From the NCBI GenBank assembly GCA_024710445.1, contig JANJUT010000215.1:1-14711 (forward strand): 14,711 nucleotides of DNA. Reading direction: 5' to 3'. The stretch comes from Thiobacillus sp. GTDB lineage: Bacteria; Pseudomonadota; Gammaproteobacteria; Burkholderiales; Thiobacillaceae. Made by a program: the position numbers and the translations under genes. Of this stretch, positions 6,942-12,666 are shown in pieces; positions within the stretch are counted from its first letter, which is position 1; each line of letters begins with the position of its first letter. The notes beneath the pieces were generated by a model, which made no database searches, was not told the DNA's origin, and worked only from the letters and a program-made list of their open reading frames with translations.

Positions 6942-6963
6942 CGATTTTGGTTCAGTTTTGATT

Positions 6964-9228
6964 ATGCAAAAGCCCGCTTTCGTCCCCCGCCTGCTTCCCT
7001 TGATGATTGCCATCAGCCTGTTTCCGGTCACGTCCAGCGCGAATGAGCCGACGCCCCTGGCGACCGTTGTGGTGGAAGGTGCGCCGGAAACCCTCGCACC
7101 GGCCGGCATTGTGGTTGAAAACCTGCCGTCGCTGCGGGCCACGACCAGCGACACCGCCAGCCTGCTGCGGGATGTCCCGGGGGTGAGTCTGTACGGCGCC
7201 GGTGGCGTGTCCAGCCTGCCGTCGATCCACGGCCTGGCGGATGACCGGCTGCGCATCAAGGTCGATGGCATGGATCTGATTTCAGCATGCGGCAACCACA
7301 TGAACCCCGCTTTGTCCTACATCGATCCCAGCAATGTGGAGAGCATCCAGGTGTTTTCTGGCCTTGCGCCGGTGAGCGTAAGCGGCGACAGCATCGGCGG
7401 CGCCATCCATGTGAAATCTTCGGAGCCGGAATTTGCCGCTGCAGGCGGCACGCTGCGCAAGGGCGAGGCTGGCGCTTTCTATCGCAGCAACGGCAATGCT
7501 TTTGGCGGCAATCTTTCAGCCACTGTTGCAAGCGATACGGTCAGCGTGACGTATAGCGGATCGGCTGTGAAATCCGGCAATTACACGGCCGGCGGGGATT
7601 TCAAGGCAGCAGGGCCGGCCTATGTCAATGACGGAAAATCCATCACGACCTCGACCAAATGGCTGGCCGGAGACGAGGTTGGATCGTCCATGTATAAATC
7701 GATGAACCATTCCCTTGGTTTTGCGCTGCGTAATGAAAACCACCTGACTGAACTGAAGCTGGGCCTGCAGGATCTTCCTTACCAGGGCTTTCCGAATCAG
7801 CGCATGGACATGACCGCCAACGACAGCGAGCAGGTCAATCTGCGCTACAAGGGCCAGTACCAGTGGGGTGCGCTGGAGGCGCGCGTCTATCATGAGCATA
7901 CGCGGCACAAGATGAATTTCCTCGAAGACAAGGCTTACTGGTATCAGACTTGGGCACCGGGTATGCCGATGGACACGGAAGGCAGAAACACCGGTGCCGT
8001 GGTCAAGGCGGATATTGTTCTTTCCGCGCGCGACACGCTCAGGGTCGGGAGTGAATACCAGCGTTATCGTTTCGATGACTGGTGGGAAGCTTCTGGTACG
8101 GGCGGCATGTCCCCGGATACCTTCTGGGACATCAACGATGGCGAGCGCGACCGTTACGCCGTGTTTGCCGAATGGGAAGTGCGCTGGAGCCCGCAGTGGC
8201 TGAGCCAGCTGGGTCTTCGTCACGAAACGGTCAAGATGGATACCGGGCCGGTGCAGGGCTATAACGGTACCTATGCTGCAGACGCCGCCGCTTTCAATAC
8301 TGCCGACCGCAGCCGCACCGACAGCAATTGGGACATGACCGCGCTGGCCCGCTACATGGAAAACGACAGCACGGCCTATGAGTTTGGCTATGCCCGCAAG
8401 ACCCGCTCACCCAACCTCTATGAGCGCTATACCTGGTCGACGGGCGGCATGGCGATGAACATGATCAACATGACTGGTGATGGCAACGGTTATGTCGGCA
8501 ACCTGGACCTGAAGCCGGAAGTGGCCCACACGATTAGCGCCACTGCCGACTGGCATGACGCCGGGGAGCAGAACTGGGGTCTGAAAATCACACCGTATTA
8601 CACCTACGTTCAGGATTACATCAATGCGCGGCGCTGCGAGGCAGCTGACAGCCAGATGGCTGGATCGAAATGTGCCGCGGCAAACCTGACGACCGTCAAT
8701 AATTTCGTGTTCCTCAAATACACCAATCAGGATGCCCAGCTCTACGGCCTGGATATTTCCGGTTACATGCCACTGGCCAGAAATACCGGTTACGGCAGCT
8801 TCACCGCAACCGGCGTGCTGAATTATGTCAGGGGAGAAACCACTTCCGGAATCGATGACAATCTCTACAACATGATGCCATTGAGCGCGAAACTGGCCGT
8901 CGTGCAGAATCTGGGCAGATGGACCAACACTGCGGAAGTCGTGATGGTCGATGCCAAGGATGACGTGTCGCAAGTCCGAAATGAGATCAGGACAGCTGGC
9001 TACAGTTTGCTGAACCTGCGTAGCAGCTATACGTGGAAACAGGCACGACTGGATATAGGGATCGAGAACGTCTTTGATAGACTCTACGACCTTCCCCTGG
9101 GCGGGGCATATGTTGGGCAGGGCACGACCATGCCGCCAGCGGGGATGGCATCAGGGGCCCCCGCCTGGGGTGTCCAGGTTCCCGGTACCGGCCGTTCGAT
9201 CTACACGGGCGTGACCGTTCAATTCTGA
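6964..9228 (+). CDS. OprC/NosA-like TonB-dependent copper receptor
   Basis: Outer-membrane beta-barrel with N-terminal plug, predicted to import copper using TonB energy. Numbered from ATG 6964 (754 residues): signal peptide 1-26 (VTSSA before NEPT), possible TonB box near 33-38 (ATVVVE), plug about 45-155 (LLRDVPGVSLYG, IHGLADDRLRIKVDGMDL, SGDSIGGAIHV), barrel to the terminal F754. CxxxM is present as C109-GNH-M113 and HxM as H315-K-M317, the paired motif that holds copper in Pseudomonas OprC as I recall it. Met-rich loops (GMPM 333-336; M496, M498, M500, M503) and a possible loop disulfide (C558/C570) add soft-metal character. An in-frame TTG at 6958 is less likely. No clear ribosome site is seen. 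The copper chaperone follows 23 nt later, supporting copper as cargo; NosA-like relatives are the alternative name. Confidence 0.9.
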   Translation: MQKPAFVPRLLPLMIAISLFPVTSSANEPTPLATVVVEGAPETLAPAGIVVENLPSLRATTSDTASLLRDVPGVSLYGAGGVSSLPSIHGLADDRLRIKVDGMDLISACGNHMNPALSYIDPSNVESIQVFSGLAPVSVSGDSIGGAIHVKSSEPEFAAAGGTLRKGEAGAFYRSNGNAFGGNLSATVASDTVSVTYSGSAVKSGNYTAGGDFKAAGPAYVNDGKSITTSTKWLAGDEVGSSMYKSMNHSLGFALRNENHLTELKLGLQDLPYQGFPNQRMDMTANDSEQVNLRYKGQYQWGALEARVYHEHTRHKMNFLEDKAYWYQTWAPGMPMDTEGRNTGAVVKADIVLSARDTLRVGSEYQRYRFDDWWEASGTGGMSPDTFWDINDGERDRYAVFAEWEVRWSPQWLSQLGLRHETVKMDTGPVQGYNGTYAADAAAFNTADRSRTDSNWDMTALARYMENDSTAYEFGYARKTRSPNLYERYTWSTGGMAMNMINMTGDGNGYVGNLDLKPEVAHTISATADWHDAGEQNWGLKITPYYTYVQDYINARRCEAADSQMAGSKCAAANLTTVNNFVFLKYTNQDAQLYGLDISGYMPLARNTGYGSFTATGVLNYVRGETTSGIDDNLYNMMPLSAKLAVVQNLGRWTNTAEVVMVDAKDDVSQVRNEIRTAGYSLLNLRSSYTWKQARLDIGIENVFDRLYDLPLGGAYVGQGTTMPPAGMASGAPAWGVQVPGTGRSIYTGVTVQF

Positions 9229-9251: not shown

Positions 9252-9707
9252 ATGAAAACCACGCTTGCCGCCGCACTGTTAGTCAGCCTTGCAGGCCTGC
9301 CCGCCTGGGCTGCCAATGTCAGCGTCACCAATGTCTGGGCGCGTGCCACCATGCCGGGGCAACCGGTCAGCGGTGCCTACATGCAGATCCAGTCCGATGA
9401 AAATGCGAAGCTGATAGGGGCATCCAGCCCGGTCGTGCCGCGCGTGGAAATCCATGAAATGAAAATGGATGGTGATGTGATGCGGATGCGTGAAGTCAAG
9501 GCGATCGACCTGCCGAAAGGCAAGACCGTTTCACTCGAGCCGGGCGGGTTTCACATCATGCTGATGAATCTGCAGAAACCGATTGCTGCGGGCGAGATGG
9601 TTCCGCTCAAACTGGTCGTGGAATCCGGCGGCAAGCAGCAGACGATTGAGGTGAAAGCCGAAGCACGCGGTGCGGGCGGCGGCACCATGCAGCATCAGCA
9701 TCACTAA
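9252..9707 (+). CDS. Periplasmic copper chaperone PCuAC
   Basis: Secreted cupredoxin-like chaperone (DUF461/PCuAC family) that delivers copper to cytochrome c oxidase and related cuproenzymes. Signal peptide 1-20 (LPAWA, then ANVSV). The copper motif H-X10-M-X21-H-X-M fits exactly: H68, M79, H101, M103. Extra potential ligands are M70, M72, M77 and the C-terminal MQHQHH tail (146-151), like the Met/His tails that bind Cu(II) in some relatives. AGGG lies 7 nt before the ATG (9241-9244). The gene is 23 nt after the copper receptor, probably one transcript. Its TAA overlaps the TAG of the convergent hvfC by two bases, with no room for a terminator. The 151-residue length is normal. Confidence 0.95.
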   Translation: MKTTLAAALLVSLAGLPAWAANVSVTNVWARATMPGQPVSGAYMQIQSDENAKLIGASSPVVPRVEIHEMKMDGDVMRMREVKAIDLPKGKTVSLEPGGFHIMLMNLQKPIAAGEMVPLKLVVESGGKQQTIEVKAEARGAGGGTMQHQHH

Positions 9708-10465
9708 GCCTGACGGATTCCCAGGATCGCGCCACGCGCACGCAAGTCTTCCAGCAGCGCACCACCAGCCTGCAGGATCAGCGCGGGGTCGGGGTGGCGG
9801 CTTTCTTCGGCGATGCGTTGCAGGGCGGCGCGCCCGCTCAGGGTTCCCGCTTCGATCAGGGTGAGCAGGCGTGCCGTGAAGGCATTGATCTCGGTGAATG
9901 CCACCCGGTCTTGGCCATCGCGGAATACCAGCAGCCAGGTTTCAGCAGGTTGCACTTTGCGTCGCGGTGCGATGTGGTGCACGGGCCAGTCGTAATGCAG
10001 GTTGGCCAGCACCGGATTCAGCACGGGTGTGCCATCGAGCAGATCACCGGCGGTATCGATGCCGCAATCCACGCTGCGGTTCGACACCGACAGCACCAAC
10101 TCAATCCACTCATAATGCGCCAGCGCCAATAGATATGGCGGATAGCCTTCATGGGGCGTCCATTCATTTTGCAGAAACTGCACGAACTCGTCTGGAATCT
10201 GCCGGAAATAGGGGGTGTGACTGCGATGCGTACTGAAAAACCCACGCACCAGTTTTGACCATTTGCGCACGCCAAGCACGTTCTTCAGAACCGGAAAGCA
10301 CGCCAGCAAGAACCCTTCCACATTGTTGTAGAGCAGTTCGTTGTAGATGTTCATGCGTCGCGCTTCCACGCCAGCCGGGCGCGGGTTTGCCCTGGGATCG
10401 CGGATGTGCGCGGTGAAGGCGCGCTGGTAACGCTGAAATTCAGGAAGCTCGGGCGAGGGTTTCAT
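9704..10465 (-). CDS. hvfC: HvfC/BufC-type RiPP maturation partner (DUF2063)
   Basis: Partner protein of the MNIO enzyme HvfB, thought to bind and present the precursor peptide during modification. The N-terminal DUF2063 domain (about 8-100) shows the usual features: [32 protein letters not shown] (38-54) and [12 protein letters not shown] (76-87). [16 protein letters not shown] (108-123) belongs to the linker or second domain; the C-terminal half (about 160-253) is an all-alpha/beta domain with no recognised catalytic residues. I chose ATG 10465, which gives 253 residues and starts 26 nt inside hvfB, so the two are translationally coupled; an open frame extending upstream to 10621 has no HvfC-like sequence and is antisense-like noise over hvfB. 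No DoxX-like HvfD gene follows. Confidence 0.9.
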
Positions 10466-11321
10466 GGGCGGCGTGCGCTGCCTGGCTGTGTTGAGTTTGG
10501 CTGTGTCGATTCTGGATCTGCGCGATGTGTTCGACTTCGCGCACCAGTTCGGCCAGCGGCGGGATGTTGAAGTCACGCTCCAGCAGCGTGGGGAAGACGC
10601 CGTGGAGGTGATAGGTTTCATCGAGCAGCGCCCACACCGGGTCGATCACATCGGCACCGTGAGTGTCGATGATCAGGTCGTCCGCCTCGTTGTAATGGCC
10701 GGCCATGTGCAGATACACAATGCGTTCGCCCGGCAGGGCACGAATGAATTCGAGTGGGTCATAGCGATGGTTCACGCTGTTGACGTAGACGTTGTTGACG
10801 TCGAGATGCAGGTCGCAATCGGCCTCGTCGAGCACCGCACGGATGAAATGCGCCTCGTCCATCTCGGCGATGGGTGAAGCCGTATAGAACGATGCATTTT
10901 CGATGGCGATGCGGCGTTCCAGAATGTCCTGCGTGCGGCGGATGCGCGCAGCGACGTAGTTCACCGCATCTTCCGTGAATGGAATCGGCAGCAGGTCATA
11001 CAGATGCCCGTCATCCGAGCAGTACGACAAATGTTCGGTAAAAAGGGCAATGCCGTGGGCATCCATCAATTGCCGTGTTTTGTGCAGCAGCATTTCGTCG
11101 AGCGGAGCCGGGCCGCCAAGTGACAGCGACAGGCCGTGGCAGACGAAGGGAAAGCGTTCGGTAAAACCGCGCAGGTCGCGGCCATAGGCGCCCCCCATGT
11201 CGATCCAGTTCTCCGGAGCGATTTCGAAAAAATCGATGGCATCGGGGACATGGATTTTCAGCTCGGGCAGAAGCTCGCGCCGAAAACCCAGTCCCGCGCC
11301 GGTGGGGCGCAGGGTTTTCAT
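10440..11321 (-). CDS. hvfB: HvfB/BufB-type multinuclear non-heme iron oxidase (MNIO, DUF692)
   Basis: Iron-dependent TIM-barrel oxidase predicted to convert cysteines of the neighbouring precursor into copper-binding heterocycles or thioamides. The 293-residue sequence has the DUF692 conserved blocks: [10 protein letters not shown] (8-17), FFEIAPENW (31-39), [10 protein letters not shown] (61-70), TEHLSY (95-100), IAIENASFY (138-146), [15 protein letters not shown] (171-185), YLHMAGHY (203-210), IDTHG (218-222) and LLERD (246-250). Likely metal ligands are among H62, E96, H97, E141, D174, H205, H209, D219, H221 and E248. The C-terminal tail is His/Gln-rich (H265, H273, H278, H283, H286) and is encoded partly over the start of hvfC. 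It starts 10 nt after the precursor stop. MbnB (methanobactin) is a relative, but the partner here is DUF2063, which points to the HvfABC/bufferin branch. Confidence 0.94.
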
Positions 11322-11331
11322 GGCAGGGCGT

Positions 11332-11772
11332 TTACTTCATTCCGCCCATGCCGCCGCACTTGCCTTCCATCGGCATTTTGGCGCCACCGCATTTGCCCTG
11401 CATCATCTTGCCCATTTCAGCCTGGTCGAGAGAGCCGTCCTTGTTGGCATCCATTGAGTCAAACACGGCCTCGTGCCGCTTGACGAATTCTTCCTTGCTG
11501 ACCTTGCCGTCCTTGTTGGCGGCCATCATGGCAGGGCAGGGCATGCCTTCGGGTGCACCGGCTTTCATGCCGCCGCATTTTCCCTCCCCCGCTTTCATGC
11601 CGCCGCACTTGCCTTCCATCGGTTTTGGGACAGTTGTGTCCGCAACCTGGTAACCGCTCGACAGGCCGGACAGGGCGAAGGGGTTTTCGGTGGCCGATGC
11701 AATGGGCGCGGCAGCCATGCTGGCAACAAAGGCGGAACCAACAGCCGTAGCGATAAGGGTTTTCTTGGACAT
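11332..11772 (-). CDS. hvfA: HvfA/bufferin-type RiPP metallophore precursor with embedded EF-hand
   Basis: Secreted small Cys-rich protein, the predicted substrate of HvfB/HvfC and a periplasmic copper sequestrant. Numbered from ATG 11772 (146 residues): Sec signal 1-28 (IASA, then TENPF); [17 protein letters not shown] (29-45), a stretch usual at the mature N-terminus of this family. Then modules EGKCGG at 53-58 and 63-68, GMPCPAMM (76-83), an EF-hand region (84-119), QGKCGG (125-130) and EGKCGG (136-141). Cysteines are C56, C66, C79, C128, C139; mature Met content is high. The second EF loop [12 protein letters not shown] (108-119) is canonical; the first ([12 protein letters not shown], 84-95) has Ala instead of Asp at position 1. 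GGAG lies 8 nt upstream of the ATG; an in-frame TTG at 11790 is inside that leader and rejected. It heads an operon with hvfB and hvfC. Confidence 0.88.
11347..11373. repeat. Exact 27-bp direct repeat, copy 1 (3' end of hvfA)
   Basis: Identical base for base to 11596-11622. It encodes PMEGKCGGM at residues 134-142 of the precursor. The two copies are 249 nt (83 codons) apart and in frame, enclosing the EF-hand. Recombination or replication slippage between them would remove the EF-hand segment without a frameshift. Confidence 0.9.
11561..11620. repeat. Two tandem 30-bp imperfect repeats in hvfA
   Basis: Units 11561-11590 and 11591-11620 share their first 17 bases exactly and then diverge at a few positions. 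Each encodes one decapeptide with the core EGKCGGMK (residues 51-60 and 61-70), so the metal-binding modules probably multiplied by tandem duplication. Confidence 0.85.
11596..11622. repeat. Exact 27-bp direct repeat, copy 2 (middle of hvfA)
   Basis: Second copy of the repeat at 11347-11373, encoding PMEGKCGGM at residues 51-59. It overlaps the second unit of the tandem 30-bp repeats and marks the N-terminal border of the EF-hand-containing stretch. Confidence 0.9.
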
Positions 11773-11842: not shown

Positions 11843-11854
11843 GGCTCAAGAGCC
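11843..11854 (-). terminator. Weak hairpin at the end of the anti-sigma gene
   Basis: GGCTC-TT-GAGCC on the minus strand spans the anti-sigma stop codon and is followed by TTTT. The stem is at most 4-5 bp with a very tight loop, so termination would be leaky. It could separate sigma/anti-sigma transcription from hvfABC in part. Confidence 0.3.
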
Positions 11855-12103
11855 GAGCTTTTTCTGCAATTCGGTTTTGATGCGCTGCCGGGCGTTGGGC
11901 GTGAGTCCAGGCGTGGTGTCGTCCACGCCTGTTTCCACACGGAACAGGCGGCGCATTTCCTGCAATTGCGAGTTGAAGCGGGCGCAGTTTTTGCACATGG
12001 CCAGGTGAAACTGCATGGCCATGCGCTCAGCAAACCGCAGGCGTTCGTCCATGGCGCGCGACGCAAGTTCCGTCGTTTCCTTACACGTTGGCATCCATTT
12101 CAC
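11846..12103 (-). CDS. Soluble zinc-finger anti-sigma factor
   Basis: Small cytoplasmic protein expected to hold the adjacent ECF sigma factor inactive until a signal is sensed. From GTG 12103 it is 85 residues, with C7 and the zinc anti-sigma motif H33-X3-C37-X2-C40 (FHLAMCKNC). There is no membrane segment, unlike many anti-sigma factors of metal-stress ECF systems, so it should sense a cytoplasmic signal such as a thiol oxidant or metal displacing zinc. The GTG overlaps the sigma stop (GTGA, 4 nt) and has AGGT 5 nt upstream; ATG 12094 is an alternative start without a ribosome site, three codons shorter and retaining all four ligands. It lies 73 nt before hvfA on the same strand. Confidence 0.8.
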   Translation of the reverse strand: MKWMPTCKETTELASRAMDERLRFAERMAMQFHLAMCKNCARFNSQLQEMRRLFRVETGVDDTTPGLTPNARQRIKTELQKKLGS

Positions 12104-12666
12104 GTTGCACCTGCTTTCGAAAAACCGTTCAACTCCAGGCATTGCCGCATGAACAAACGCGCCCGATGCAGCAGTACCCAGCAGTTGGTCGGGGTAATGT
12201 CGAGTTCCTTACAGATTTCTTCGGTTTCCATGCCGCCGACCTCACGCAGGCTGAAAACCTGCGCCATCAACGGTTTCAGGCGGTCGGCGCATTCGTCCAG
12301 CACGCGTCGTAGCTGGCTGAGTTCGGCTTCGGCATGCGGATTGCCCCAGGAGCGGAGCGGTTCGGCCCAGTGGCCGTCTTCCTTGAACAGCAGGTCGACT
12401 GCTTCCTCGCCATCCGCGCTGTGCGGCAGGGCAACCTCGCGCACCTGGCGCCGGATCAGGTCGACGATCTTGTGTTTGAGTATGCCGGTGAGCCAGGTGC
12501 GCGGGCTGGCGTCACCCGTGTAGCGAGCCTGTGCGGAAAGCGCGGCCAGCAGGGTTTCCTGCACCGCATCTTCGGCCAGTTCGTCCGAATGGAGCTGGCG
12601 GCGTGCCACCCGGAATAAATAATCTCCGTGCTCGGCCAGCCAGGATTGCGCGTCAAGCGTGTGCAT
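12100..12666 (-). CDS. ECF-type RNA polymerase sigma factor
   Basis: Sigma-70 family factor with regions 2 and 4 only. Numbered from ATG 12666 (188 residues): region 2 about 11-75 (LAEDAVQETLLAAL at 30-43, then PRTWLTGILKHKIVDLIRR at 55-73) and region 4 about 118-178 (LKPLMAQVFSLREVGGMETEEIC, then the helix-turn-helix DITPTNCWVLLHRARLFMRQCL). The NCWVLLHRAR ending and the adjacent zinc-finger protein resemble a betaproteobacterial family I remember as TIGR02943. ATG 12666 has GAGG 8 nt upstream; ATG 12678, four codons earlier, lacks one. The frame stays open to 13008 but that part runs antisense through the heat-shock gene. Translationally coupled to the anti-sigma gene and followed by hvfABC, so it probably controls that operon and itself. 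Confidence 0.9.
   Translation of the reverse strand: MHTLDAQSWLAEHGDYLFRVARRQLHSDELAEDAVQETLLAALSAQARYTGDASPRTWLTGILKHKIVDLIRRQVREVALPHSADGEEAVDLLFKEDGHWAEPLRSWGNPHAEAELSQLRRVLDECADRLKPLMAQVFSLREVGGMETEEICKELDITPTNCWVLLHRARLFMRQCLELNGFSKAGAT

Follow-up and report, generated by a model that had tools for sequence, protein, structure and literature searches.

The pairing of an EF-hand unit with EGKCG motifs is already in print (Antoine et al.; here and below, published reports are drawn on for the passages that deal with these proteins). EfhP (PA4107) of Pseudomonas aeruginosa has a signal peptide, EF-hands and four EGKCG repeats; iron sensing has been proposed for it (PMC11559002), and DUF692 and DUF2063 genes adjoin efhP (PMC4053335). 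A Buf_EGKCG|EF-hand_5 chimaera described in 2025 begins with a signal peptide or a transmembrane segment, combines EGKCG motifs with EF-hand_5 domains and has MNIO genes as neighbours; its two EF-hands are attached C-terminally to a short EGKCG domain (PMC12452194). HvfA/oxazolin and FonA/fontiphorin have EGKCG motifs, HvfB- and HvfC-type enzymes and, in HvfA, a signal peptide; the HvfA repeats are contiguous (EGKCGEGKCG), and the passages on HvfA mention no EF-hand. Here we analyse a stretch of 14,711 nucleotides from Thiobacillus sp. (the window), in which a minus-strand gene encodes an HvfA-like precursor of a ribosomally synthesised and post-translationally modified peptide (RiPP) whose EF-hand unit lies between two sets of cysteine modules. 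The published passages on EF/EGKCG proteins drawn on here do not mention modules both before and after the EF unit. To the known pairing we add the frequency of this sandwich order, a cysteine (C79) and a first EF loop that appear decayed, kin without modules or with histidine-rich arms, and the idea of a folding timed by export.

The elements of the precursor and its two maturation genes are as follows.

11332..11772, minus strand: hvfA-like precursor of 146 residues, EF-hand unit amid cysteine modules (open reading frame; Pfam EF-hand_5 above cut-off; homologues)
11689..11772, minus strand: putative Sec-type signal peptide, about residues 1-28 (by eye; alike in relatives)
11599..11616, minus strand: module 1, EGKCGG, residues 53-58 (sequence)
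11569..11586, minus strand: module 2, EGKCGG, residues 63-68 (sequence)
11536..11538, minus strand: C79 within MPCPA (GMPCPA) (sequence; predicted unmodified from the FonBC rules, PMC12668002)
11488..11523, minus strand: EF loop 1, residues 84-95, without Asp at +X (sequence, relatives)
11416..11451, minus strand: EF loop 2, residues 108-119, canonical (sequence, Pfam, relatives)
11383..11400, minus strand: module 3, QGKCGG, residues 125-130 (sequence)
11350..11367, minus strand: module 4, EGKCGG, residues 136-141 (sequence)
10440..11321, minus strand: hvfB, MNIO maturase (DUF692) (PF05114, E 2.8e-103; NF003818, 432.5 bits vs cut-off 360)
9704..10465, minus strand: hvfC, DUF2063/RiPP recognition element partner protein (PF09836, PF22106; NF050145, 283.8 bits vs cut-off 142; start codon assigned by hand)

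A sequence-only reading of the window had listed four modules, C79 and an EF pair with one canonical and one degenerate loop, and its residue numbers hold for the minus strand; the plus-strand frame across 11332..11772 is interrupted by a stop. Its further claim, a RiPP metallophore precursor with the EF unit between two cysteine sets, agrees with the scores of HvfB and HvfC above their NCBIfam cut-offs and with the same order in relatives. The module cysteines C56, C66 and C139 lie in EGKCG and C128 in QGKCG, spaced by 10 and 11 residues, and C79 lies in GMPCP. Pfam EF-hand_5 matches the precursor in two stretches (E 1.5e-9, 37.3 bits vs cut-off 25.9), and the two loops, both with Ala at position 2, are separated by 12 residues. 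The match is not due to chance, since all 46 members of the set A3 match EF-hand_5 and loop 2 is conserved in relatives. Ten bases separate the hvfA stop from the hvfB start, hvfC overlaps hvfB, and the incomplete 2.4-Mb source genome gave one MNIO match.

With an adjacent HvfB-type MNIO, an HvfC-type partner and repeated EGKCG motifs, the protein is read as a probable HvfA/oxazolin-type MNIO-PME1 precursor, with spaced modules where those of HvfA are contiguous. Like the Buf_EGKCG|EF-hand_5 chimaera, it is MNIO-linked and combines EF-hand_5 with EGKCG motifs, but two modules follow its EF unit and one of its loops is damaged, such that it is a variant of that chimaera in which the EF-hands are not C-terminal. 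The loops of EfhP are 15 residues apart, as counted from the published E99 and E126, and both are canonical, whereas those of the precursor are 12 apart with loop 1 damaged. Two proteins with loops similar to those of EfhP, from Pseudomonas (L207) and Stenotrophomonas (L257), have modules before the EF unit only; EfhP itself was compared by its published description.

The sandwich order is frequent. Among the close relatives, which are the best 120 of 1601 homologues and include several labelled Thiobacillus, 119 were parsed by a pattern that requires Asp1 and Glu12 in loop 2 and neither in loop 1; modules flank the EF unit on both sides in 112, on the C side only in 4 and on the N side only in 3, and a looser module rule found them on both sides in 116 of 118 single-pair proteins. 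How common EF-hands are in precursors at maturase genes, a survey that the sequence-only reading had proposed, was counted at 190 HvfB loci: 25 precursors carry an EF unit, the window's included, and 24 of them are sandwiches. The family sample (72 loci, with the window) holds 18 sandwiches, 52 precursors without an EF unit and 2 loci without a recognised precursor; the class sample (118 loci) holds 6 sandwiches, one C-end EF form, 70 precursors without an EF unit and 41 loci without a recognised precursor. Of 80 loci retained from named genomes, 17 carry an EF precursor with HvfB downstream. Thirteen are sandwiches (L195, L198, L203, L204, L206, L208, L209, L211, L220, L224, L230, with EGSCG as its N-side motif, L233 and L235), from Nitrosospira, Lysobacter, Tahibacter, Luteimonas, Pseudoxanthomonas, Dokdonella, Pseudomonas (two) and others. 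Four have the EF unit at the C-end, in two Nitrosomonadaceae-type genomes (L192, L193), Pseudomonas sp. RIT623 and Stenotrophomonas (L207, L257), an order also seen in L164. The samples contain near-identical genomes, so that none of these counts is a number of independent events. Module splits vary (3+1, 3+2, 2+1, 1+2 and others), with totals from 2 to 7. Within the samples examined, the gene order, the motifs, the EF unit, its sandwich position at these frequencies and its patchy presence are direct observations. One relative of 190 residues (P0026) reads modules, EF pair, module, EF pair, modules and looks like a duplicated unit.

The second loop is the more conserved. Its Asp1 and Glu12 are present in 120 of 120 close relatives (119 by the pattern, which demands them, and P0020 by inspection of its sequence), a conservation that partly reflects shared descent among best-scoring homologues, and its position 9 is Asp in 117 of 119. 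In loop 1, Asp1 is kept in 113 of 119, and position 1 or 12 is damaged in nine, the window's copy among them; P0013 and P0063 are examples of relatives in which neither loop is damaged. The loop gap in other EF-bearing precursors is usually 12 to 17 residues and is 30 in two.

The sequence-only reading had counted C79 as a modification site, which is unlikely. The related maturase FonBC tolerates no Pro at any position of the 5-mer, requires the Cys to be followed by Gly or Ala and leaves a one-repeat peptide unmodified (PMC12668002, preprint), and C79 has Pro on either side; judged by these rules, it is probably rejected by the maturase. The nearest cysteine within 9 residues before loop 1 in the 119 relatives stands in EGKCG (24), EAKCG (18), ENKCG (15) or other contexts, and 25 have none. 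One relative each shows GMPCP or DMPCP, and in P0068 a GMPCR stands at a shifted position. Because Pro residues barred by FonBC flank C79 and many relatives hold a module-like cysteine at this place, it is most likely a decayed module.

We propose, at a probability of roughly 0.47 and therefore tentatively, that the precursor is an HvfA/oxazolin-type RiPP of the EF-hand chimaera subtype, modified in the cytosol, exported by Sec and folded in the periplasm upon Ca2+ binding by the EF unit. By analogy with HvfA and FonA, for which thiooxazole chemistry and copper binding are reported (PMC12668002), HvfBC would oxidise the four EGKCGG-type cysteines, C79 excepted, to copper-binding 5-thiooxazoles in the cytosol, with the signal peptide serving as its leader. 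In the FonA peptide, modification of two sites gave a mass shift of -8 Da. HvfA without its signal sequence carried less than one modification per peptide, and modification before export is therefore indicated for it (PMC13419390, preprint); the same order is presumed for the precursor. The EF unit, which the maturase would not need, would be Ca-free and disordered during modification, the chain would leave by Sec while still unfolded, and in the periplasm the EF unit would bind Ca2+, chiefly through loop 2, and then fold. This would leave a compact folded centre, flanked on either side by a flexible arm that binds copper. Free cytosolic Ca2+ is far below the 13.7 uM affinity of EfhP. That protein binds Ca2+ with this affinity and is molten-globule-like without it, and Ca2+ in the periplasm is at least as high as outside the cell (PMC9132961). 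Given this affinity and apo state, and low cytosolic and high periplasmic Ca2+, we infer that the EF unit may be open in the cytosol and fold after export; for the window's protein, both the Ca2+ trigger and the use of such folding are presumed.

We saw no sign that the maturase needs the EF unit. The window's genus holds 12 EF precursors, the window's included, and 23 EF-less ones with signal and leader regions in common; over these 35, mean identity of the signal and leader is 73.7% among EF precursors, 73.3% between EF and EF-less ones and 78.3% among the EF-less. Identity of HvfB to that of the window is 81-96% at the other EF loci of the genus and 80-87% at the EF-less ones. On a quickly made tree of 70 HvfB proteins, 18 of them with EF precursors and 25 of its 67 forks open, the EF label changes at least 7 times, compared with 12-18 times in 200 shuffles. 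A gating of modification by calcium, as the sequence-only reading had considered, is unlikely because HvfB proteins 80-87% identical serve EF-less precursors, and the poor modification of signal-less HvfA also speaks against it. Maturases that share at least 80% identity with that of the window stand beside precursors with and without the EF unit, a natural set of matched pairs. At one locus (L006), whose HvfB shares about 85-87% identity with that of the window, sigma and anti-sigma genes lie upstream and no precursor was recognised between them and hvfB.

The precursor has regulatory genes upstream, with hvfB and hvfC downstream, and further genes face hvfC.

11846..12094, minus strand: small zf-HC2 (zinc-finger) anti-sigma factor (PF13490; NF052368 above cut-off; start assigned by hand at the M of MPTCKETTEL)
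12100..12666, minus strand: extracytoplasmic function (ECF) sigma factor, TIGR02943 family (domain and NCBIfam matches; start assigned by hand at the M of MHTLDAQSW)
9252..9707, plus strand: PCu(A)C copper chaperone, convergent with hvfC (PF04314, E 5.9e-38)
6958..9228, plus strand: TonB-dependent receptor (PF00593, PF07715)

The ECF sigma and anti-sigma genes track the taxonomic group rather than the EF unit. Both were found at 23 of 23 EF-less and 9 of 12 EF loci of the window's genus, at 1 of 70 EF-less and 0 of 7 EF loci of the class sample and at 0 of 17 named EF loci, and upstream of EGKCG-type clusters they occur at 49 of 70 family loci vs 1 of 77 in the class sample; the upstream flanks ran from less than 100 to 3500 bases, so some pairs may be missed. 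The PCu(A)C gene is present at 11 of the 12 EF loci of the genus, window included, and the twelfth (L025) stops within hvfC. The TonB-dependent receptor does not reach the cut-off of TIGR01778, a model for copper receptors. Together beside hvfABC, the PCu(A)C and receptor genes would fit copper uptake.

Several observations weigh against the export-timed folding of a copper-binding RiPP. These last two neighbours suit copper uptake as well as buffering. The NCBIfam HvfA models NF050137 and NF050188 leave the window's precursor unmatched at E 0.1, while at E 0.001 they match 31 and 23 of the 46 members of A3; the first is named for KCGExKCG repeats, and the precursor has none. AlphaFold2 confidence is low on average (51.4 and 52.8), being fair in the EF unit only (block means of 72-79 over residues 89-118) and below 50 in the modules. 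A change in EfhP loop 1 of a kind like that seen here lowered Ca2+ binding, and changing positions 1 and 12 together abolished it (PMC9132961); since loop 1 of the window's copy lacks the +X Asp, this copy may bind Ca2+ weakly. Four more named loci (L194, L197, L215, L255) have a C-end EF unit and no HvfB in the locus, by which the sandwich share falls to 13 of 21; their genomes do hold an MNIO. Two homologues, L196 (3495-3893) and L201 (3492-3890), keep the signal, a leader-like start and the EF pair and have no cysteine, with KYG or GYG where kin carry the KCG module. In four others, three labelled Nitrosomonas and one a Proteobacteria metagenome-assembled genome, His-rich arms flank the EF pair: L199 (3405-3860), L200 (3405-3866), L202 (3354-3764) and L205 (1495-1947). 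HvfB is absent from the loci of all six, and an MNIO is encoded elsewhere in five of the six genomes, including all four His-armed ones. In these module-free homologues the EF unit serves some separate purpose; it can sit between other arms and can outlive or precede the cysteine modules.

The locus joins two lines of work that have scarcely met, one on how EfhP-like proteins sense Ca2+ and one on how metallophores made by MNIO enzymes handle copper. If EF-hands sit in a modified copper peptide, effects of metal may account for part of the calcium phenotypes described for EfhP. A bolder and rather unlikely extension is that widespread copper-binding thiooxazole proteins use the Ca2+ jump across the inner membrane as a folding signal, with copper capture switched on only in the periplasm, where a Ca2+-folded central EF unit would set the metal-binding arms, perhaps in dimers, in a working arrangement. 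If so, Nitrosomonas-type genomes would have put this folding core to a second use in their His-armed EF proteins.

As an alternative, the EF unit could be the calcium sensor itself, as argued for EfhP, with cysteine modules that sense or hold metal and a signal passed on to a partner, for example the neighbouring anti-sigma and ECF sigma factors. EfhP was reported to show Ca-dependent hydrophobicity and regulation, with anti-sigma partners speculated upon (PMC9132961, PMC11559002), the two regulatory genes lie directly upstream of the precursor, and EF-bearing homologues without modules exist in L196 and L201. However, by the counts given above the sigma pair shows no link to the EF unit, and loop 1 of the window's copy is damaged, which makes this an unlikely explanation, though the strongest of the competitors.

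The sequence-only reading had raised a joining of the cysteine clusters, in which Ca2+ would pair both loops so that the N- and C-terminal sets meet and copper sites span the EF unit. This is possible in principle. Nevertheless, usual Ca-responsive EF-hand proteins have loops about 25 residues apart (PMC10232371), while only 12 separate the loops here, and loop 1 is damaged. The module splits vary from protein to protein, C-end EF forms exist (L192, L193, L207, L257, L164) and the best Foldseek match has E = 0.018, such that a precise clamp is a little less likely still than a sensor.

A dispensable EF unit, a spacer or relic between modules that is decaying in the precursor and some of its kin, would account for its patchy distribution on the HvfB tree, for the loop 1 damage in nine relatives and for the loss of the module at C79 in the window. 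But Asp1 and Glu12 of loop 2 remain in all of the best 120 relatives, even those with a damaged loop 1, which would be needless for a mere spacer, and EF units persist without cysteine modules in L196 and L201; we regard this explanation as improbable, somewhat behind the clamp.

Very improbable is a lanthanide-binding EF unit like that of lanmodulin, despite the top ranks of lanmodulins 6mi5 and 8fns in a profile search of solved structures, with a gapless alignment over both loops, the loop gap of 12 within lanmodulin's 12-13 (PMC10232371) and the Asp9 of loop 2, as the precursor has two loops rather than four, no Pro at position 2 and cysteine modules that the aligned lanmodulin stretches lack, and 38 of 55 module-free EF proteins from the same scan likewise have 12 as their shortest gap, which is hence no lanmodulin sign alone. 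For EfhP, binding of Ca2+ but of neither Mg2+ nor Sr2+ was reported, the passages on its binding making no mention of lanthanides (PMC9132961).

Combinations of EF-hands and KCG modules also occur in Bacteroidota, where three proteins, L225 (3453-4397), L231 (101-697) and L258 (303-803), have several EF loops together with KCG modules. No MNIO was found in their genomes, whose completeness is not stated. By eye, two of the three proteins begin lipoprotein-like, a DoxX-like gene comes next after that of L258, and L225 and L231 adjoin GMC-oxidoreductase-like genes.
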